Source: Fusobacterium perfoetens (lineage in GTDB: Bacteria; Fusobacteriota; Fusobacteriia; Fusobacteriales; Fusobacteriaceae). From it: DNA of 64,000 bases. Shown here piece after piece: positions 33,683 through 49,412 of the stretch. The number at the start of each line of letters is the position of its first letter. Position 1 is the first letter of the stretch. The position numbers and the translations under genes are program-made. The notes under the pieces were generated by a model. It searched no databases. It saw nothing but the letters and a program-made list of their open reading frames with translations, and was not told where the DNA came from. The DNA lies in assembly GCF_021531595.1 (NCBI RefSeq), contig NZ_JADYUD010000001.1, positions 124,001-188,000 on the forward strand, written 5' to 3'.

Positions 33683-35143
33683 ATGTTTAAAAGTGGAATA
33701 CTTGTAATGCTGATAACATTAGTCAGCAGAGTGCTTGGACTTGCAAGAAGTGTTGTTGTTGCTTATTATTTTGGTGTATCTGCAGGAACAGATGCTTTTT
33801 TCAGTGCATTTAAAATAAGTAATTTTTTCAGACAACTTCTTGGAGAAGGAGCACTAGGAACATCGTTTATCCCCATGTATAATGAAAAAGTTGAAAAGCA
33901 GGGGGAAGAAGAGGGGAAAAAATTTATTTTTTCAATTCTTAATATAGTTTTTATTTTTTCTGTTATAGTTTCACTTGGAATGATAGTATTTTCAAAAGAA
34001 ATAATAACAGTTATAGTGAGTGGATTTTCAGATGAAACAAAATTTATTGCATCTGATCTTTTAAAAATAATGTCAAGTTACTTCATTTTTATAAGCCTTT
34101 CAGGAATGATTTGTGCAGTGCTTAATAATTTTAAATGTTTTGCAGTGCCAGCATCAACTTCCATATTTTTCAATATTGCTATTCTTGGAGGAGCAATATT
34201 TTTTGGAAAAACTTATGGGATAAAAGCTATGGCTTATGGGGTTCTTGTAGGAGGTTTTTTACAACTTATAATAGTTCTTCCACAATTTTTTAAAAGAGTA
34301 GGAAGATATAGATTTAGGATTGATTTCAAAGATGAATATCTTAAAAGAATTTTTTATCTTATGGTTCCTATGCTTGTAGGAATTGTTGCAAGACAGTTTA
34401 ATACAATAGTAGATCAATTTTTTGCTTCATATCTTGAAACAGGAGGAGTATCAGCACTTGAAAATGCAACAAGAGTATATAATCTTCCTATAGGGGTTTT
34501 TGGAATATCAATTTCTACAGTAATTTATCCAGCTCTTTCAAAAAAAATTGTTAATAAAGATTTTAAAGCTGTAGAAGAGGATATTAAAAAAGGACTTAAT
34601 ATTTTATTGTTCTTAGTTGTGCCATCAACTATAGTTCTTACTATTTATTCAGAAGATGTAATAAGACTTATTTTTGAATATGGAAAATTTGGAGGAAGAG
34701 CAGTAAAGATAACTGCTGAATCACTTTTTTATTATTCTTTAGGACTTTATTTTTATACTGCAATACATCTTATGACAAGAGCTTTTTATGGAATGAAAAA
34801 CAGCAGAGATCCTGTTAAGTTTTCAATATCGGCAATTGTAATAAATATTCTTTTAAATGCTCTTTTAATAAATTCAATGGAATATAGAGGGCTTGCTCTT
34901 TCAACTTCTGTGGCAGCAATGGTAAACTTTTCATTACTTTTATATACATTTAGAAAAAAATATATTTCTCTGAGCTTAAAACCTGTTTGTATTTTTCTTA
35001 TAAAAGTTCTTATAAGTTCAATGATAGCAGTTGCAGCAAGCTTTTGGTTAAAAAATATTATAGTTAAACTTGCAGTATTTGGTGCAGTTTATCTTGCTTT
35101 ATGGGGATATACATTGTATAAGAAAAAATTAGAGGTATTTTAA
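33683..35143 (+). CDS. murJ: Lipid II flippase MurJ
   Basis: Flips lipid II, the peptidoglycan precursor, across the inner membrane. The 486-residue protein has about 14 hydrophobic helices and the MurJ N-terminus (LVMLITLVSRVLGLARSVVV with the conserved Arg residues), GTDAFFSAFKISNFFRQLLGEGALGTSFIP (about residues 35-64) and the LPIGVFGISISTVIYPALSK segment. It follows scpA by 16 bp and its stop shares one base with the next gene (TAATG). The neighbours are core. Confidence 0.95.
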   Translation: MFKSGILVMLITLVSRVLGLARSVVVAYYFGVSAGTDAFFSAFKISNFFRQLLGEGALGTSFIPMYNEKVEKQGEEEGKKFIFSILNIVFIFSVIVSLGMIVFSKEIITVIVSGFSDETKFIASDLLKIMSSYFIFISLSGMICAVLNNFKCFAVPASTSIFFNIAILGGAIFFGKTYGIKAMAYGVLVGGFLQLIIVLPQFFKRVGRYRFRIDFKDEYLKRIFYLMVPMLVGIVARQFNTIVDQFFASYLETGGVSALENATRVYNLPIGVFGISISTVIYPALSKKIVNKDFKAVEEDIKKGLNILLFLVVPSTIVLTIYSEDVIRLIFEYGKFGGRAVKITAESLFYYSLGLYFYTAIHLMTRAFYGMKNSRDPVKFSISAIVINILLNALLINSMEYRGLALSTSVAAMVNFSLLLYTFRKKYISLSLKPVCIFLIKVLISSMIAVAASFWLKNIIVKLAVFGAVYLALWGYTLYKKKLEVF

Positions 35144-36684
35144 TGGGAATTTCAAATTATAAAGTATACACACCATTTATATATGCTGATTTTATAACTG
35201 AACTTGCAATAAAAAACTATTTCTGTGAAGAGTATACTGAAGAAAAATTAAGAAATTTGAAAATAGCAGATCTTTCCTGTGGAACGGGAAATCTTCTTAC
35301 TGTAATGCTTATAAAACTTATAGAACTTTCAAAAAAAATAACAGGAAAATATTTTTTTAACTCAGATTGGATAAGAGGATATGATATTGATGAAAATGCT
35401 CTTGAAATCTATAAACAAGATGGGCAGGAGATTTTAAAAAGATATAATCTTAAAGGAGAAATTTTATTTTTTAAAGAAGATTCACTTTTAAGTGAAAAAA
35501 AAATAAAATATAATATAGTAATAGGAAATCCTCCATATTTAGGAGAAAAAAATCATCAAAAAATTTTTAGAAAGCTCAAGGAAACAGAGTTTGGAAGAAA
35601 ATATTATGAAAGTAAAATGGATTATTTCTATTATTTTATAGAAAAAGGTATTGATATTTTAGATGAAGAAGGAATTCTTGTGTATGTTACAACAAATTAC
35701 TGGCTTAAAGCTGACAGTGCGGTAATTTTAAGAAAAAAACTAAAAGAAGAGGGAAACTATACAGATATAATAGATTATAATATTTCCATATTTAAAGATG
35801 CTCCAGGTCAACATAATATGATTTTTTCATGGAAAAAAGAAAAGAAAAATGTAAATGATAAAATAAATATAGAAAAAGAAGGAAATAAATTTACTTTAAA
35901 AAATAGTAATCTTTATGATGAAAAAGGAAATATTATTCTTGTTGATGAAGAGAATAGAAAATTTAATAAAAAGATAAGTGAGAAAAGCACACATAAATTA
36001 GGAGAAATTTTTAATATCAATCAAGGAATAGTGACAGGGTGTGATAAGGCTTTTATTACAAAAGAATATAATGAAAAATTTAAAGAATATCTGAAACCAT
36101 TCTATAAGAATAAAGATATTTTTAAGTATAGCTGTATAGATAAAAATTATTTCTGGATATACTATATTGAAAAAACAGATGATATTTCAGATGAATTGAA
36201 AAATTTTTTTATGCCTTATAAAGAAACTTTATTAAAAAGAAGAGAAGTAAGAAAAGGTGCTTTAAAATGGTGGCAGCTTTTATGGGCAAGAGATAAAAAT
36301 ATAATGAAGGATGAAAAAATTCTTGTAAGGCAAAGATGTAAAACTAATTTTTTTGCATATAGTAAAGGAGAATTTTATGGAAGTGCAGATATATATTATC
36401 TGACTTTAAAAGATAGATATTTTAATATTTTTTATATTCTAGGATATCTTAACTCTAAAATTTTTTATAGATGGTATAAAAATAACGGAAAACATAAAGG
36501 ATATAATCTTGAATTTTATACTACCCCTTTAAAGCAAGTCCCTTTATTTTATCCGAGTAATGATAAAAATAATGAGATTTTATATGTTGAAAATTTAGTT
36601 AAAAAACAGATAGAAAATTATTCAGAAGAAGTTCAGAATGAAATAGATAAATATTTTGAAAAGGTATATTTAGATAAAAATTAA
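35143..36684 (+). CDS. N6-adenine DNA methyltransferase (Eco57I/TaqI-like), no nuclease domain
   Basis: A 513-residue type II-like adenine methyltransferase. Motif I is ADLSCGTGNLL (about residues 42-52), motif IV is NPPY in IVIGNPPYLGEK (about 125-136), and LVYVTTNYWLKA follows. The C-terminal half (about residues 280-500) looks like a target-recognition domain with CDKAFITKEY...RQRCKTNFFAYS...YILGYLNSKIFYRWY, as in Eco57I-type enzymes. No restriction nuclease is encoded beside it. Its ATG overlaps the murJ stop by one base, so it is translated from the murJ message, an odd context for a DNA methyltransferase. A terminator follows. Confidence 0.85.
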   Translation: MGISNYKVYTPFIYADFITELAIKNYFCEEYTEEKLRNLKIADLSCGTGNLLTVMLIKLIELSKKITGKYFFNSDWIRGYDIDENALEIYKQDGQEILKRYNLKGEILFFKEDSLLSEKKIKYNIVIGNPPYLGEKNHQKIFRKLKETEFGRKYYESKMDYFYYFIEKGIDILDEEGILVYVTTNYWLKADSAVILRKKLKEEGNYTDIIDYNISIFKDAPGQHNMIFSWKKEKKNVNDKINIEKEGNKFTLKNSNLYDEKGNIILVDEENRKFNKKISEKSTHKLGEIFNINQGIVTGCDKAFITKEYNEKFKEYLKPFYKNKDIFKYSCIDKNYFWIYYIEKTDDISDELKNFFMPYKETLLKRREVRKGALKWWQLLWARDKNIMKDEKILVRQRCKTNFFAYSKGEFYGSADIYYLTLKDRYFNIFYILGYLNSKIFYRWYKNNGKHKGYNLEFYTTPLKQVPLFYPSNDKNNEILYVENLVKKQIENYSEEVQNEIDKYFEKVYLDKN

Positions 36685-36712
36685 AAGAGAGCTTATACGC
36701 TCTCTTTTTGTT
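36683..36712. terminator. Bidirectional terminator after the methyltransferase
   Basis: AAAAGAGAGC (36683-36692) pairs with GCTCTCTTTTT (36699-36709) around TTATAC. It also follows the stop of the convergent alarmone synthetase gene. Confidence 0.85.
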
Positions 36713-37492
36713 TTACTTAAATTTATTATCAAGTTCTCTGTCGTCAGAATACTCCATATTTTCAGTTACAGCAGGTTTTAAATTTTTAATAAATGTTCCC
36801 ATTTCATCAGCACTTCCAACTATTCTGTTAAAAATGCTTAAATAATCATTTAAAATAGGATTATCTACATCATAAGGATATCTTATAATATGATCAATTT
36901 CGCTCCATGCTTCTTCAAAAACAGTTCTTACCTGCATTTCAACATAAAATTTTTCTCCTGTTTCAGATTCTGTCTGAATAAGATAATGTACAGAACGATA
37001 ACCATGTTCTCTTACTATAATTTCACAGTTAAGATGTTTCATGGTTTCTTTAAGAAGATCCATGTTGTAATCACCAGGTCTTACATTTATTTGTGGAGTT
37101 TCTGCTACATCCCAAAACTTTAAAATTTCATTGTGAATATCAATCCAATCATCTTTAAAAAGATGAAGAACTCTTACTCCTATAAGGTCTGTTACAATTT
37201 CTTTATAGTTTTTAACAGATATATTTCTATCTACATACTTTTTCCCTTTTCTTATTATTTTTTCTATAAGATGGGCAGGTTTCTTTACTCTTCTTCTTAC
37301 AGAGTGGACAGTTTTGGTGTCAATAAGTTTAAAAGTAAATTCATCTGCAAGTTTTTCAAGAGTTGGAACAAGAGTTATATAGTCATCATGGATTTTTACA
37401 AGTTCATCCCAGTTAAGACCTGTTGACTCAAAATATTCCTCCTCAATTGAAAATTTTTCAAAAAAGTTTTTTCTGTCCAGCAATTTTTTCAC
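36713..37492 (-). CDS. Small alarmone synthetase (RelA/SpoT synthetase domain)
   Basis: A 259-residue protein with only the (p)ppGpp synthetase fold, without HD hydrolase or TGS/ACT domains. The nucleotide-binding motifs are seen: VRRRVKKPAHLIEKI, DLIGVRVLHLFKDD (about residues 103-116) with the catalytic Asp, REHGYRSVHYLIQTES, and EMQVRTVFEEAWSEIDH (about 184-200). This is the plan of RelQ/RelP-type enzymes. It would raise ppGpp under stress. An alternative bifunctional role is unlikely at this length. It lies 50 bp downstream of the acidic-protein gene (start 37492, stop of the latter 37543) and may be part of the same transcript. Confidence 0.88.
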   Translation of the reverse strand: MKKLLDRKNFFEKFSIEEEYFESTGLNWDELVKIHDDYITLVPTLEKLADEFTFKLIDTKTVHSVRRRVKKPAHLIEKIIRKGKKYVDRNISVKNYKEIVTDLIGVRVLHLFKDDWIDIHNEILKFWDVAETPQINVRPGDYNMDLLKETMKHLNCEIIVREHGYRSVHYLIQTESETGEKFYVEMQVRTVFEEAWSEIDHIIRYPYDVDNPILNDYLSIFNRIVGSADEMGTFIKNLKPAVTENMEYSDDRELDNKFK

Positions 37493-37542: not shown

Positions 37543-38847
37543 TTAATTTTCTAATTTTGACAATTCAATTAAGCAAGGTTTTCTGTAGCCTGCTGTTTTT
37601 TCTTTAAAAATATTATTTTTTTCAAGAGGATTTCTAAGAGTTATTTTTTCTTCTATAACTAAGTTTTTATCAACTTTATGCTTTCTTTTTATAATCAGGA
37701 AATCTCCTTCATGTAAATTGTAATTTTCATTTTTAAAATTAAAATTACACCATGTCTCTATCATTCTGTTTTCTCTTAAAGCTGCATTAAGCTCAAGAAG
37801 ATAATAGATATTTTCACACTCAGGAAGTTTATCAGCTTGGAATTTGTATCCTGATTTATTAAGTGTTTCAAAGAAATGCTGAACGGTTTTTATTCTCATA
37901 AGTTCTATTCTGTCTTCAGCTGTAATATCTCCATAGAGATTATTTACTTTAAATGAAATAGGTGCTCCACTAAATATTTTTTCAAGCATCTCTAAGACTT
38001 TAAGCATTCTTGAATTTTTTATAAGAGAGCTTATTTCATATGAGCGAACACTTCCATAAGCTTTTATAGTGTCATTATTAAGTGAAACACTTAGTCCAAG
38101 TTTAAATTCTCTATGTTTTACTTCAAGCATTTTTATAGATTCATTAGAAACGATTCTTAAATGACAATTATTGATACTGTCATTTCCTATTTTTATTCCT
38201 GTATTTCCAATTACAACCTGATTAGGAAAAGTCATTCCTTCGGGAATATTAGAAATTTTAATAGGGAGCTGAGAAAGCTTTAAAGAACTATATTTAATCT
38301 CTAAAGCTGTTTCAAATTTTCCCATATCCTGAGAAAAATCAAAAGAAACAGTTTTAGGTTCATATATATTTTCAGTTTCTTTAATTTCATTTATAATTTC
38401 AGTATCTGAAAGAATTTTTTCAGGATCAGGAGATATAGCATCAGATAAAGTTATATTTTCACTTTCTGAGCTTTCAACTTTTGTTTCTTTTTTAATTTCT
38501 TTTTCTTGAGAGAAATTATTTTCAGTAGAAATGTTATTTCCAAAAAGTTGATATTGTTTTTCTGTTATAGCTTCAAAGCTTTCAGTATCTTCTAAATTTT
38601 TCTGCAGTTCTTCAGTTTTGCTTTCTGTCGGTAGTTCTTTTATGCAGTTTTCAGTAGTATCAATTTTTTCTTCAGTAATTTCTTTAAATGTAAGATTTTT
38701 TTCTAAAGATTGAGAAACTTCAGGCAGAACATTTTCAGCAGCATTATTTTCTATTTCAATTGTGCTTTCTTGAGAAAGATTACTAATACTTTCAATCTCA
38801 TTATTTTCTATCCTGCTATTTTCTGCTTCATCTTCTGATACTACCAT
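37543..38847 (-). CDS. Unknown acidic protein, partner of the SIR2-like gene
   Basis: I do not recognise the family. The 434-residue product has two parts: residues 1-165 are Glu/Asn/Ser/Thr-rich, low complexity and probably disordered, with many short acidic repeats (EENNE, TEEKI, ESSESEN); residues 165-434 look globular, with FDFSQDMGKFETALEIKYSSLKLSQLPIKI (about 171-200, an amphipathic beta run) and a helical MLKVLEMLEKIFSGAPISFKV block. No Cys cluster, signal or membrane segment. Its ATG overlaps the stop of the SIR2-like gene by seven bases (ATGGTAG), so the two are coupled. No function can be given. Confidence 0.6.
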   Translation of the reverse strand: MVVSEDEAENSRIENNEIESISNLSQESTIEIENNAAENVLPEVSQSLEKNLTFKEITEEKIDTTENCIKELPTESKTEELQKNLEDTESFEAITEKQYQLFGNNISTENNFSQEKEIKKETKVESSESENITLSDAISPDPEKILSDTEIINEIKETENIYEPKTVSFDFSQDMGKFETALEIKYSSLKLSQLPIKISNIPEGMTFPNQVVIGNTGIKIGNDSINNCHLRIVSNESIKMLEVKHREFKLGLSVSLNNDTIKAYGSVRSYEISSLIKNSRMLKVLEMLEKIFSGAPISFKVNNLYGDITAEDRIELMRIKTVQHFFETLNKSGYKFQADKLPECENIYYLLELNAALRENRMIETWCNFNFKNENYNLHEGDFLIIKRKHKVDKNLVIEEKITLRNPLEKNNIFKEKTAGYRKPCLIELSKLEN

Positions 38848-39674
38848 TGGAACTTTTTTTCGTTCATCAACTCACTGTATAACTGGGGGAATAGTTTATT
38901 TAAATCTATATTAGGATTTTTTGTATAATTTTTAAGTTCTCTGAAAAATTCATATTCAGTTGAAGCAAGAACTTTAATATTATACTTATTGAAAAATTCC
39001 ATTACCTTTGGATTTAAAATAGAATTTGATGTTATTACATACATAGGTTTTATATCTTCGCAATTTCTGCTTAAAATGAAATCAAGAATTGTAAAGAAAT
39101 CAGAATCATCAAAATCTACCCCTAAAAAAATTGTACTTCTATGCTTAAGTTCATATCTTATACTATCCCAAAAAACAGTATAGAAAGGAAGAACTCTAAG
39201 TCTTCTGAAATCTTGCTCTGTTACAGCACAATTTTCATAGTTACTTAAATCTCCAAGAACTTTATAAAGTCTTACCTTTCCATCAGTAAAAATTTCCTTA
39301 TCATATGGTGTGATTTTTTTAACCCTTGTACTTTCTTCTATTGAAGAATCATAGTTTGTATTTATAACTGCTCCTACCAAATCAGCTTCTATAAGAGCAT
39401 CAAGATAACAGTTACTGCTCTTTTTATACTCATATATTCCTTGTATTTTTTTATACAGCGACTGCTTCGTTCCTATTACAGAATCTACAAAACATTGACT
39501 GACTTCAAACAAAGAATGTCTGTCATTAAAGCTTTTTATATTTTTAAATTTTATTTGATTAGCTAAAATTTCAACGAGTCCATCTCTGCTTGGGAAGCCA
39601 TTAGATTTTTCAAAAAAATTGCCAGTACATATATTAAGTTTTTTTTCTAAGTCAAGTTTTTCAAAAAAGCTCAT
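38841..39674 (-). CDS. SIR2-like domain protein (degenerate catalytic His)
   Basis: The 277-residue protein has the SIR2 fold as judged by AVINTNYDSSIEE (the TNYD motif, Asn105-Asp109), YKVLGDLSNYENCAVTEQDF (about residues 137-156) and TIFLGVDFDDSDF (about 181-193). In SIR2 NAD enzymes the second motif is HGD; here it reads LGD, with Leu140 in place of the catalytic His. The Gly-rich GAGxS loop near residue 17 is also replaced (CTGNFFEKSNGFPS). It therefore probably does not hydrolyse NAD in the usual way. GAGG precedes the ATG, and a TTGAGA-17-TATACT promoter lies upstream. Confidence 0.65.
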   Translation of the reverse strand: MSFFEKLDLEKKLNICTGNFFEKSNGFPSRDGLVEILANQIKFKNIKSFNDRHSLFEVSQCFVDSVIGTKQSLYKKIQGIYEYKKSSNCYLDALIEADLVGAVINTNYDSSIEESTRVKKITPYDKEIFTDGKVRLYKVLGDLSNYENCAVTEQDFRRLRVLPFYTVFWDSIRYELKHRSTIFLGVDFDDSDFFTILDFILSRNCEDIKPMYVITSNSILNPKVMEFFNKYNIKVLASTEYEFFRELKNYTKNPNIDLNKLFPQLYSELMNEKKFQW

Positions 39675-39712: not shown

Positions 39713-39741
39713 AGTATATACTATATTTATAAAATTCTCAA
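39713..39741 (-). promoter_or_regulatory. Promoter of the SIR2-like/acidic-protein unit
   Basis: On the minus strand TTGAGA (39736-39741), 17 bp, TATACT (39713-39718), about 35 bp upstream of the SIR2-like ATG. Confidence 0.6.
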
Positions 39742-39829: not shown

Positions 39830-41284
39830 ATGTTACAGCAGGTATTTCATTTACTTGGAGATTACATCTTCGTTGCAAACATCTTTTTAGCATCTGTAGT
39901 TCTTTTCTTTGAGAGGAAAAGACCAGTATACACTTTGTTTTGGATAACTATTTTGCTTTTAACTTCATATTTTGGTTTTATTGCATATTTGTTTTTTGGT
40001 ATGAAATTTTATAAAAAAAGAAATACAGAAAAATTTTATACAAGAAATTTTTTAAGACAGATATATAAAGAAAACCATTATAAAGTTCAGCTTGTGGAAA
40101 AGAGAACTAAACTTGTAAGCTACATTGTAAAATCTGTAGGAAATAAAGTTACATATCTTAATAATGTTTATTTCTTTAAAGAAGGAAATTCTTTTTTTCA
40201 GAGAATGATTGAAGATATAAGAAATGCAAAAGAAACAATAAATATGGAGTATTATATTTTCAGTGATGATGAGTTTGGAAGTGGAATATATGACGAACTT
40301 ATTTTAAAAGCACAAGAAGGAGTTAAAATTAAAATAATTATTGACGGGATAGGAACAAAAATTCTTAAAAGAAAAAGAATAAAGCAGCTTGAAAAAGCTG
40401 GTATAAAAGTAAAAACTTTTTTTCCTTCTCATTTTCCATTTTTCAGATTTGGAAATTTAAGAGCAAATTATCGTGATCATAGAAAAATGTGTATAATTGA
40501 CAGTCTAATATTATATACAGGAGGCTTCAATATAGGAAATGAATATATAGGCAAAGGAAAGCTTGGCAACTGGAGAGATACAGGTGCAAGGATAAATGGA
40601 GAAATAGCAGTTGATGCTGACAGAGAATTTTATATTTCATGGAACTTTGTTCATAAAGGAGTTAATCTGAGAGATATTGACAAACAACTTCGTAGTAAAG
40701 TGAATAATATTGAAGAGAGAAAAGAAAAATTTCATATAAATGCTATGCAGATTGTAAGCAGTGGCCCTAACTATCAGACAAGAACAATTCGTGATTGCTT
40801 TATGAATCTTATAATGAGTGCCAAAAGAAGTATATATATAGAAACACCATACTTTGTTCCTGATGACTTGCTCCTTGACTGCTTGAGAATAGCGATTATG
40901 TCAGGTGTGGAAGTAAAGATAATAGTTCCTTATATAGGAGATCATCCTTTTGTTTATTGGGCAAATCAAGGATTTATTGTAGAACTTTTAGAAATGGGAG
41001 CTGAAGTATACAGATATACTGATGGATTTTTCCACAGTAAACTTATAATAATAGATAATGAAGTAGCTTCTTTTGGAAGTGCTAATTTTGATTACAGAAG
41101 TCTTTATCAAAACTTTGAGATTAACTTTAATGTCTATGATTTAGAGCTTGTTGGTCACTTGAGACAAATATTCTTTGAAGATATTTCAAAATCTGTCTCT
41201 TTAGACTATAAGGTTATGAAAGAAAGAAATGTATCTGAAAAAATAAAAGAGTCTATATGCAGATTAATATCTCCAGTAATTTAA
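39830..41284 (+). CDS. cls: Cardiolipin synthase
   Basis: Makes cardiolipin from two phosphatidylglycerols at the inner membrane. The 484-residue protein has two N-terminal transmembrane helices (about residues 10-28 and 38-56) and two phospholipase-D HKD motifs: YRDHRKMCIIDSLILYTGG (about residues 218-236) and FFHSKLIIIDNEVASFGSAN (about 398-417). The ribosome site is GGAGG, and cls is followed 12 bp later by a PHP-domain gene. The synthase family is clear; ClsA versus ClsB type is not separated. Confidence 0.94.
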   Translation: MLQQVFHLLGDYIFVANIFLASVVLFFERKRPVYTLFWITILLLTSYFGFIAYLFFGMKFYKKRNTEKFYTRNFLRQIYKENHYKVQLVEKRTKLVSYIVKSVGNKVTYLNNVYFFKEGNSFFQRMIEDIRNAKETINMEYYIFSDDEFGSGIYDELILKAQEGVKIKIIIDGIGTKILKRKRIKQLEKAGIKVKTFFPSHFPFFRFGNLRANYRDHRKMCIIDSLILYTGGFNIGNEYIGKGKLGNWRDTGARINGEIAVDADREFYISWNFVHKGVNLRDIDKQLRSKVNNIEERKEKFHINAMQIVSSGPNYQTRTIRDCFMNLIMSAKRSIYIETPYFVPDDLLLDCLRIAIMSGVEVKIIVPYIGDHPFVYWANQGFIVELLEMGAEVYRYTDGFFHSKLIIIDNEVASFGSANFDYRSLYQNFEINFNVYDLELVGHLRQIFFEDISKSVSLDYKVMKERNVSEKIKESICRLISPVI

Positions 41285-46183: not shown

Positions 46184-49100
46184 TTATTTTAATATTTGAA
46201 GGATTTCTTCTTTTGAAAAATCAGTATCATTTATTTTAAAACCATTTTTTCTTAAATTATATATCTTTTCTTCAATTGTATTCTCTGCAAAAAAATTATA
46301 AATAATAATTTTATTTTCAGGAGAAAAGTCTATATAATTTGTAAGATTTGAATAATACCACTGGTCAAGGAAAATTATAACATCTGTTTTTGGAAATTCA
46401 CAAGGAAGATGTTTAATTTTTGAAGATACAAATAAAGCACCTAAAGATTTTGAATTAAAAGCACTAAACTTGTCATTTATTTCTTCTTCATTCATTTCTT
46501 CACTAATAAAAATATGTGTATTTTTAAAACCTGGAGCTGAACCTTTATGTGCAGTAATTCCGTTAAAATTATAAACAACTATAACTTTATAGCTATTATT
46601 AAATAAAATTTTCAAAAGATTATAAAAAAGAGTGTTTTTTTCAAATGAAGAAATTTTTTTATCATTCAAAGTTTCTTGTAGTGTAAAGTAGCAGGCATTT
46701 TTAAGTTCTTGGAACATTTCTAGAATATCATCTTTTTCTAAATCTAGATTATTTTTTATTTCATATATATAGTTATTAAAAATAGCAGAATATATTCTTC
46801 TGTTTTTTGGAGTCAGAGAAAATTTTATTTCAGTATTTACTATATTTGATAGTTCTTCAATAACTTCAGATTTTGTACGGCGTAAAATAAATGGAGTTAT
46901 AACAGGAACTGATTTCTTTTTATAGTTATAATATTTAGATAAAAATTTTTCAAGATTAATAAGATAATCTGGAAGAACAATAGAAAAAACAAGCCATATT
47001 TCTTTTAAATCTACTTCAATAGGAGAACTTATAGAAGCATATGCTGTTTTACGGTTAATCTTTTTGATAGCTTTATAAAAACTTTCTGAAGGAAGTTTTG
47101 CAGAATAGAAATTTCCAAAAATAACATTTTCAAAATAGATATCTTCAAAAATTGAATATTCTTTTTCAAAAAAAGAATAAGTAGTAATAATAATTTCTCC
47201 TGAAGAGATATCAGAAAGCTCTTTTTCATCAGATAAATTTTTATCAATAATTTTATATTTTAAATTTTTATAAAAACCTTCTATATTATTTTTCCAACTT
47301 TCTATATCTTCCTTGTGCACAATTATAAGGTTAGGAAGCTGATTTTCTCTGTTTTGAATTTCTAAAAAAGCAAGAAGCTGCATTTTTTTTCCTAATTTTG
47401 GTCCATCAGCAAGAATACCTCCTACACCTTTTCTTTTCATATTTAAAAGCCAGTTTGTTCCATAGTATTGATATTTTCTTAAAAAGTGATATTCAGGAGC
47501 ATAATTTGCTATGTAGTCTTTCATATTTAAATTATTTATAGAATAATTATTTAAGAAGAAGTCATAAACTATATCTCTATAGAAAGTACCTGAGAGAATT
47601 TCTTGATCTGTAAATTTTAAGGTTGTAAATAATTCTTTAAGTATTCTAAGATCAGTTTCTTTAAAGTATAGAATACTTTTATTTCTTAAGGAAATATATT
47701 TTGAAAATCCACTAAGATAAAAAAGAGCATGAAAAGTTTCTAAAATTTCATTTGAAGTAAGAACATCAGAAGAAATATTTATTTTAAGCATATCTTTTTC
47801 TTTTGAAATGTTCAGAAAAATTTCAGCTTCTATATATTTAATTTCTTTAGAATCATCAGAATACAGAAGTTTACCATCATAAAAAAGTTTTTTAGACTGC
47901 TCTGTAAAAAAATTATAAGCTTTATTCTGAGTTGTAAAAATATAACACTCTTCTTTACTAAATTTATCTTTAGTTAAACATTTAAAAAATAATTTTTCGT
48001 TACAGCTAAGATTATACTCATATAGTCTGTCTGAAATGATTTCTTTTTGTATATTTTCAACTTTTAAACCATCATATAGAAATTTAGGTTTTATAAAATA
48101 ATAATCATCAGAAAATTCAACAAAAGCTCCAGACTGAATTTTTTCAGGAAAATAGTAATTTTTTATTACTTCATCTGAGAATTTTACATTGAAATATTTT
48201 CTTAAATTAAAGATAATAGTTCCTACATCTTTACTATTTTTTGGAAATATTATTTTATTTTTAGTTTCTGAATAAACTTTAAAAATATTTACAATATTTT
48301 CATAGTCAGGTATTTTTATCAATTTTATATTTTCATTATCAGTTTTATAGCAGATATATTCTCTATTTATAGGATACCAATTTTGAATATTTTTTATTTC
48401 AAGTACAAAATAATCTTCTTTTTCAGAAATGAAAATTTCAGGAGATATTTCCCCATGAAGATAATTTGAACACATCTGAGGAAAGAAAGGCATAAAAATA
48501 GGTAACATAAAATCAGGTATTTCTAAATTATAGTCGCTGTCAATTTTAGAAAAATTTCCATATTCAAGATAATTTTTAAGGATATTAATAAAATCTTTTG
48601 AAAGAGATTCAATTTTATAATTATCTTTTTCAAGGATCATTATAAATGGCAGTTTTGTTTCAGAATAATTGAAAAAACGGTTTTGATTTTGCAAAATTTT
48701 ATAACGAATAGAATTAAAATAATTTCTTAAAGTAATATCTGAAATATATATTTTGTCATTTTCTTTTACCTTTAACTTAAAAGAAATATATAAACTAAAT
48801 TCATCTGAATAATCTTTAAGTGTATTTTTAAAAAAAGAAACAAGTTTTTCATTTTTAAAAATGCTTAATCTTATAGAATTATCTTCATGGGGAAAATACT
48901 TTTCAAGCATAATTAAAAAAGCACAGATAACATGTTCACATGGTCCTTTTTTATCGTAATTACATGTACAGTTAAAAACTTCAACAGAGTCTGATTTTAA
49001 ACTATAATATAAAGAAGGATAAAATTGTTTTTCTTTTTCTGTAATAACACCTTCTGCCAAAATACTTAGTGAATCACTTTTTTTAAAAAAAGTAATATTA

Positions 49101-49216
49101 TCTTTTGTTTTTTGTTTTGTAAAAAGGCTTTCTCCTTTTTCCCATGTTTTAAAAAATGCACGGGTTTTAAATTTTTTTATAATGTCATTTTTTTTATCAG
49201 TAGTTCTTTGTTGCAT
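46184..49216 (-). CDS. SNF2-family protein with SWIM finger and degenerate ATPase motifs
   Basis: From ATG 49216 (MQQRTTDK, GAGG nine bases upstream) it has 1010 residues. The N-terminal SWIM zinc finger is intact: NCTCNYDKKGPCEHVIC (about residues 82-98). The C-terminal 430 residues have SNF2 order, including ITPFILRRTKSEV (about 773-785), a hallmark of SNF2 proteins. The ATPase motifs are broken: GGILADGPKLGKKMQLLAF where GGILADEMGLGKTxQ is expected (Walker A Lys/Thr region), FENVIFGNFYSAKLPS where DEAQxIKN is expected (no DEAH-like acids), and no QRAHRIGQ-type Arg motif after DVIIFLDQWYYS. It is an intact 3-kb ORF, so probably a scaffold or DNA/RNA-binding protein, not a motor. Confidence 0.8.
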   Translation of the reverse strand: MQQRTTDKKNDIIKKFKTRAFFKTWEKGESLFTKQKTKDNITFFKKSDSLSILAEGVITEKEKQFYPSLYYSLKSDSVEVFNCTCNYDKKGPCEHVICAFLIMLEKYFPHEDNSIRLSIFKNEKLVSFFKNTLKDYSDEFSLYISFKLKVKENDKIYISDITLRNYFNSIRYKILQNQNRFFNYSETKLPFIMILEKDNYKIESLSKDFINILKNYLEYGNFSKIDSDYNLEIPDFMLPIFMPFFPQMCSNYLHGEISPEIFISEKEDYFVLEIKNIQNWYPINREYICYKTDNENIKLIKIPDYENIVNIFKVYSETKNKIIFPKNSKDVGTIIFNLRKYFNVKFSDEVIKNYYFPEKIQSGAFVEFSDDYYFIKPKFLYDGLKVENIQKEIISDRLYEYNLSCNEKLFFKCLTKDKFSKEECYIFTTQNKAYNFFTEQSKKLFYDGKLLYSDDSKEIKYIEAEIFLNISKEKDMLKINISSDVLTSNEILETFHALFYLSGFSKYISLRNKSILYFKETDLRILKELFTTLKFTDQEILSGTFYRDIVYDFFLNNYSINNLNMKDYIANYAPEYHFLRKYQYYGTNWLLNMKRKGVGGILADGPKLGKKMQLLAFLEIQNRENQLPNLIIVHKEDIESWKNNIEGFYKNLKYKIIDKNLSDEKELSDISSGEIIITTYSFFEKEYSIFEDIYFENVIFGNFYSAKLPSESFYKAIKKINRKTAYASISSPIEVDLKEIWLVFSIVLPDYLINLEKFLSKYYNYKKKSVPVITPFILRRTKSEVIEELSNIVNTEIKFSLTPKNRRIYSAIFNNYIYEIKNNLDLEKDDILEMFQELKNACYFTLQETLNDKKISSFEKNTLFYNLLKILFNNSYKVIVVYNFNGITAHKGSAPGFKNTHIFISEEMNEEEINDKFSAFNSKSLGALFVSSKIKHLPCEFPKTDVIIFLDQWYYSNLTNYIDFSPENKIIIYNFFAENTIEEKIYNLRKNGFKINDTDFSKEEILQILK

Positions 49217-49412
49217 AATTAATAACCTCACAAAAATTTTTTACATTGTATTGTACCATAAATTATGTAATGATAAAATTATTTCAAAAAAAATTATTTC
49301 ATTTTAAACAATGCATTAATTAAAAATTCATTCTAAAAAAATTATTTTAAAGAAAATAAAAAATATAAATATATATGATTTTGTTTCTGCATTAAAAAGT
49401 CAGAAAAAGTTA

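Follow-up and report, generated by a model that had tools for sequence, protein, structure and literature searches.

Non-mobile chromosomal genes seldom show conserved frameshifting, and few instances are known according to a 2016 review (PMC5009743). As outlined in two earlier papers (PMC5009743, PMC3711429), the dnaX gene of Escherichia coli combines the slippery heptamer A_AAA_AAG with an upstream Shine-Dalgarno (SD)-like element and a downstream stem-loop, and yields two products with a common N-terminal part. The same papers describe a reversed dnaX type in Chlorobium, in which the slip makes the longer product and the zero-frame stop lies directly past the site. Another conserved non-mobile bacterial gene with a -1 frameshift and two protein forms, as presented in the review (PMC5009743), is csoS2 of carboxysomes, where the slip leads to the shorter product. 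The heptamer A_AAA_AAG belongs to the -1 motifs with the highest efficiency in E. coli (PMC4066793).

Here we describe a locus in a 64,000-nucleotide stretch of a Fusobacterium perfoetens genome (hereinafter the window, to which all positions refer). It consists of two minus-strand open reading frames, A (277 aa, 38841–39674) and B (434 aa, 37543–38847, in the -1 frame of A), which overlap by 7 nt (ATGGTAG). The initial annotation had recognized both frames and their overlap correctly and had interpreted them as two translationally coupled proteins, possibly with a role in defence. We consider it highly probable that A and B are instead one gene, from which programmed -1 frameshifting gives A and A-B; that the inactive SIR2 part serves as an oligomerising core is a guess. 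The layout is that of the reversed dnaX type. Unlike in dnaX, however, the encoded protein is unrelated, the proposed downstream helix contains the zero-frame stop, and the second arm of this helix can lie from 11 to about 870 nt away. In contrast to csoS2, the slip would add a large domain.

Gene A encodes a SIR2-fold protein, as follows from the Pfam profile search (SIR2_2, PF13289, 8e-17) and from the alignment of ThsA of the Thoeris system (PDB 6lhx/8bto) to the profile of the A family (over 200 residues, 1.5e-11, with 6lhx). The sequence landmarks pointed out in the initial annotation, namely TNYD, LGD with Leu140, and FLGVDFDDSDF, are all present, and the profile alignment places N107 and L140 of A on the Asn of TTNYD and the His of MHGD in ThsA, respectively. 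The noted change in the glycine-rich loop also recurs, the GAG nucleotide loop being altered across the A family (38 relatives). The column of the catalytic His (HGD) contains L, F, M, N or Y and in none of the 38 relatives His, so that the description of a SIR2 fold without the catalytic residue of NADases and sirtuins extends to the entire family. The Asn of TNYD is kept in the window protein and in 26 relatives, and is replaced by Asp in 10. Given that the catalytic His is gone throughout the family, the A protein has probably lost NAD hydrolysis. The nearest SIR2 domains are those of ThsA (the PADLOC STALD profile matches A with 8e-10); compared to ThsA, the A family lacks the catalytic His and the SLOG domain, has a changed nucleotide loop and is encoded by a core gene. 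Fold matches of the SIR2 part, which itself is poorly modelled in the fused A-B protein (pLDDT mostly below 55), include the SIR2 filament proteins KomC/HAM-SIR2 and Avs5. These are active NAD effectors in defence, and their likeness to A is one of predicted fold. The SIR2 part is related to defence enzymes, yet conserved, presumably inactive and put to housekeeping use.

The B protein starts with an acidic arm of about 160 residues followed by a single domain of about 275 residues, in agreement with the earlier description of an acidic N-terminus joined to an unfamiliar globular part. The AlphaFold2 model of the domain is good (pLDDT 86, pTM 0.75). Nevertheless, no convincing sequence match to B was found in Pfam, PHROG, NCBIfam, PADLOC or PDB, and comparison of the model with PDB folds yielded no match either (best E 5e-3, probability 0.14). 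Matches to PXR-like PDB entries (E 0.3–0.7) were rejected because they disappeared when a profile was used. The B domain is an orphan by sequence and, as modelled, by fold.

The B frame is open from position 38871, i.e., 24 nt upstream of the B ATG, and the overlap contains an A_AAA_AAG heptamer in phase with A (38853–38859, minus strand), two features that were overlooked in the initial annotation. The end of A reads GA[A AAA AAG] TTC CAA TGG TAG, with the zero-frame stop (38841–38843) three codons past the heptamer. This arrangement is conserved. All 33 split loci that were read place B in the -1 frame relative to A, and the open frame of B begins 19 to 70 nt before the end of the A stop. 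An in-phase heptamer within the two-frame overlap, just before the A stop, is present in 28 genomes (the window genome and 27 others; A_AAA_AAG in 25 and A_AAA_AAA in three), in which N_A AAA AAG (or AAA) is separated by two to four codons from the stop of A; the exceptions are genera g4 and g6. The last codon of the heptamer is AAG in 25 of the 28, whereas AAG accounts for 25% of the Lys codons in the same A genes. As a background, in-phase heptamers have a frequency of one in every 396 codons over 244 kb of the window genome; these 244 kb include 29 overlapping gene pairs in a -1 relation, of which A/B alone has a heptamer inside the overlap.

If B were translated from its own start codon, the stretch ahead of this codon would be expected to be noncoding, and the opposite is observed. 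Between the A stop and the first ATG, GTG or TTG of B, the pooled 713 codons contain no stops in the B frame, compared to 71 and 115 in the other two frames, and Asp and Glu together make up 35% of the residues in the B frame versus 2–3% in the others. This stretch is plainly coding, which counts against an independent start. In the extreme cases, there is no start codon for B over 866 nt (G027, locus L013) or over 401 nt (G016, of g4). In most relatives, a start codon for B is missing around the overlap, so that ribosomes must reach B by way of the A frame.

The tie between the two proteins, which the initial annotation had anticipated, is further emphasized by gene fusion: A and B are always adjacent where contigs allow, and form a single open frame in 15 genomes. 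The fusions require at least four separate changes on the A tree, on which genomes with the slippery site occur in all main clades, with the caveat that several deep branches of this tree are long and their placement is unsure. For example, the fusion in Cetobacterium sp. 2A (L066/L081) reads TTA AAA AAA AAA GCT CTC TCG GTA AC(T), i.e., the ancestral heptamer site plus one A, and its junction, KKALSVT, is the one predicted for the slip in relatives.

The frame relation, the slippery site, the coding character of the startless stretch, the helix covariation described below and the fusions are direct evidence at the level of sequence. The slipping of the ribosome on the heptamer, and its rate, are presumed by analogy with dnaX-type sites (PMC4066793, PMC5009743, PMC3711429). 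In the mechanism we propose, most ribosomes would terminate at the A stop and produce the 277-aa SIR2-fold protein. Some, on reaching A_AAA_AAG a few codons ahead of this stop, would slip by one base in the -1 direction and continue into B, giving a protein that comprises the SIR2 fold, the acidic arm and the orphan domain. In the window, this trans-frame product is predicted to consist of 710 aa (37543–39674, minus strand, junction MNEKK/VPMVVSEDEAEN), with the fusions in relatives as its counterparts. In many lineages, an upstream SD-like element and a downstream helix holding the A stop would raise the slip rate. We can only guess that the SIR2 fold forms an oligomerising core, by analogy with ThsA and other SIR2 filaments, and that slipping determines what proportion of the subunits has the acidic arm and the B domain, comparable to the forms with a set ratio made from dnaX and csoS2. 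The window genome encodes a tRNA-Lys with anticodon CTT (G000:C8:108464-108536) besides the one with TTT, which may lower slipping on AAG. A control search for dnaX (PF12169) in this genome gave no match, hence there is no positive control from the same genome.

With respect to the stimulators, SD-like elements, defined according to Sharma and colleagues (PMC4066793), precede the heptamer in 17 of the 28 genomes, against a background of 12% in the rest of A; no such element was found upstream of the heptamer in the window genome. A downstream helix is proposed for the window, with the 5' arm TGGTAGTATCAG (38835–38846, minus strand) 6 nt past the heptamer and containing the A stop, and a putative 3' arm TTGATACTACTG (38652–38663, minus strand) 171 nt further on, in the part that codes for the acidic arm. 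This helix has p 0.005 when the 5' arm is fixed and 300 nt are searched, and is not significant (p 0.32) under the strictest test, a 1300-nt synonymous shuffle; the same 5' arm pairs also in relatives. All 10 split g5 genomes have a helix of 9–10 bp located 5–7 nt past the heptamer (p<=0.003 each). In g3 (Cetobacterium-like), g2 and G014, the 5' arm with the A stop pairs over 10–18 bp with the sequence encoding (F/L)G(V/I)T in B, at a distance of 131 to 874 nt. The Thr codon of this motif is ACC in 11 of 11 cases, versus 3 of 305 Thr codons elsewhere in the same A and B genes, although the Fisher value exaggerates this difference, as the majority of the genomes concerned are closely related.

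In the comparison of 23 distinct sequences, 90% of the helix cells are paired and 51 cells are changed on both sides, compared to 19 in shuffles; slid registers drop to 19–51% paired. The third base of the A stop codon covaries with its partner (15 A-U, eight G-C and no mismatched pairs, with TAA facing T and TAG facing C). Within the g3/g2/G014 subset, where the 3' arm was set by homology rather than picked by pairing, 97.5% of the cells are paired, with a weaker excess of covariation (8 of 500 shuffles as high); outside this subset, the register was picked by best pairing. For g5 alone, none of 500 shuffles reaches the covariation score. In 1300-nt synonymous-codon shuffles, the p value of the helix ranges from 0.005 to 0.39 per genome. 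Altogether, one or both stimulators are seen in g5, g3 and g2 and, under the strictest test, not in the window, where stimulators of the slip are presumed. If the long-range helix is real, slipped ribosomes would break it, which would create feedback on the product ratio.

Two groups depart from the common slippery site. In g6, the site reads CAA AAA CAG, so that the -1 frame is kept but the heptamer is not; this sequence would support at most a weak A_AAA slip. In Fusobacterium sensu stricto (g4 and F. vincentii, the sequence of the latter taken from a mislabelled plasmid record), there is no A-run, and the -1 frame is retained together with a GGTGAT SD-like element, which could pair with 16S rRNA, a conserved TAT GCC TRA, and a hairpin just past the A stop. 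The arms of this hairpin are changed yet still pair (GGTGAGGAC/GTCCTCACC and TTTTGAGGAT/ATCCTCAAGA). These sequences would be compatible with a tRNA-Tyr that moves from UAU to UGC (+2), but this is pure speculation. The sites concerned lie around the A stop in L134 (4166–4301, F. vincentii), L076 (8708–8843) and L084 (minus strand). A more far-reaching reading, which we consider less likely than not, is that the family shares a core gene whose -1 frameshifting is stimulated by a long-range helix between the A stop and distant B coding sequence (130 to 870 nt), and that in Fusobacterium sensu stricto the unrelated TAT GCC TRA has taken the place of the slippery site and would be a new kind of shift site.

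The frame evidence can be set against two other ways of expressing B. Under translational coupling, ribosomes would end at the TAG or TAA of A and restart on an overlapping ATG or GTG to produce B alone. A start overlapping the A stop indeed exists in the window, in G022 (ATG) and in four more g5 genomes (GTG), but most split loci lack it, with the first ATG, GTG or TTG 20 to 866 nt downstream and plainly coding sequence ahead of it. The coupling claimed in the initial annotation thus survives at best by half, for the window overlap and not for most relatives, and it offers no reason for the heptamer, the helix or the constancy of the -1 frame; as a full account of the locus it is improbable. 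Because 7 of the 28 split loci have an overlapping or near start, some B alone could arise by reinitiation; in the window, ribosomes restarting on the overlapping ATG could contribute free B, and coupling may coexist with the slip. Transcriptional slippage, in which RNA polymerase transcribes the A-run with extra or missing bases and the altered mRNAs encode A-B, would give the same products as ribosomal slipping. It is used by dnaX in Thermus (PMC3711429), and some of our genomes have runs of 9–10 A, yet the run is limited to 6 A in nearly all g3 and in two g5 genomes, where it invariably ends with a G in the slippery phase. Furthermore, the direction is always -1, a pattern that Antonov and colleagues read as ribosomal (PMC3711429), and the SD-like elements and the downstream helix make sense for ribosomes. 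We therefore regard polymerase slippage as quite improbable, and favour programmed ribosomal frameshifting into B.

The defence role suggested in the initial annotation would have the inactive SIR2 protein as a sensor and the acidic protein or the adjacent alarmone synthetase as the effector of an anti-phage system. The proximity of A to ThsA and the existence of patchy true ThsA-like proteins in the phylum speak for such a role, which the genomic distribution, assessed within the phylum, makes very improbable; one scan of a genome collection gave only 3 loci, so that relatives outside the phylum may exist. A single copy of gene A is present in 51 of 61 Fusobacteriaceae genomes (43 of 47 good-quality ones). 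Gene B immediately follows A in all cases where the contig extends far enough, and the gene order cardiolipin synthase, A, B, alarmone synthetase is recurrent; in the window, the cardiolipin-synthase-like PLD gene (PF13091/PF13396), which in the family lies upstream of A more often than any other gene, is divergent from A and occupies 39830–41284 (plus strand). Presence at one locus in all fusobacteria had been named beforehand as an argument against defence, and this is largely what we find, except that genera g7, g9 and g10 lack A-B. Outside Fusobacteriaceae, the phylum contains weak, patchy SIR2 proteins of other kinds, and B was not found elsewhere in Fusobacteriota. No relatives of A or B were found in viral contigs, nor of B in phage records, and the catalytic His is missing from all 38 relatives compared. 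Given this distribution and synteny, instead of the patchy presence in variable or mobile regions typical of Thoeris and defence islands, A-B is a core gene of Fusobacteriaceae and not a defence-island gene. The small alarmone synthetase (RelA_SpoT, PF04607, 1.9e-19; 36713–37492, minus strand) does begin 50 nt behind B, as previously noted, and action of A-B together with it in one operon, for example in tuning, deserves consideration, even if we deem it unlikely. The A-B-synthetase order holds in g1–g6 and g11, and the window has no terminator-like hairpin between the three genes but a computed bidirectional one after the synthetase (36683–36708). However, the synthetase is missing from the A-B locus in g8, where it is encoded elsewhere in the genome, and in g12, g13 and g14; g12 genomes have A-B and a single RelA_SpoT match each, the long one, and genomes and genera without A-B still keep the synthetase. 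It is a frequent but separable neighbour outside the defining unit, with which it may share a transcript. As for the promoter assigned to the pair, a sigma-70-like match (TTGAGA-17-TATACT, 10/12; 39713–39741, minus strand) does lie upstream of A, but shuffled sequence gives just as many matches of this kind (19.7, versus 19 in the actual sequence), so the claim is weak.

Frameshifting on A_AAA_AAG, the mechanism favoured here for A-B, is known as such. What appears to be new is the A-B gene itself, its conservation across a family, and the helix joining the A stop to distant B coding sequence. Our literature search returned no relevant report that joins Fusobacterium and programmed ribosomal frameshifting; the main text of the GeneTack survey names no SIR2 case, with an unnamed cluster in its supplements being possible, and the text of the 2016 review that was available (PMC5009743) mentions neither Fusobacterium nor a SIR2 case. 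If correct, our interpretation provides a family-wide core case in which a stop codon, a slippery site and a distant coding sequence evolve together, and the lineages with a fusion in place of the slip make the reason for having two products testable. It would also correct annotation, as in the RefSeq record of Ilyobacter, where B is given as a separate hypothetical protein starting 57 nt after A.

Several additional observations concern individual genomes. A phage or plasmid origin of the unit was considered and rejected for want of relatives in viral contigs or phages; the matches to Fusobacteriaceae in PLSDB come from a 2.1-Mb F. vincentii chromosome, mislabelled as a plasmid, and from the 0.96-Mb Ilyobacter replicon. 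The latter, pILYOP01 of Ilyobacter polytropus (L135), carries the A-B unit between lon and glutamine synthetase III. In the 99% complete g5 genome G020 (G020:C47, L087), A is apparently broken by an in-frame TAA near a contig end, which is either a real loss or an assembly error. True Thoeris-like defence is more plausible for the larger, patchy SIR2-domain proteins related to A in the phylum (G096:C32, G021:C229, G078:C75, G062:C1, G006:C63 and G090:C2) than for the window pair. In the window, an Eco57I/TaqI-like DNA methyltransferase gene (35143–36684) is convergent with the alarmone synthetase and is not kept at this place in relatives, and a SNF2-related helicase of 1015 aa with a bacterial SNF2_assoc domain is encoded at 46184–49231 (minus strand).
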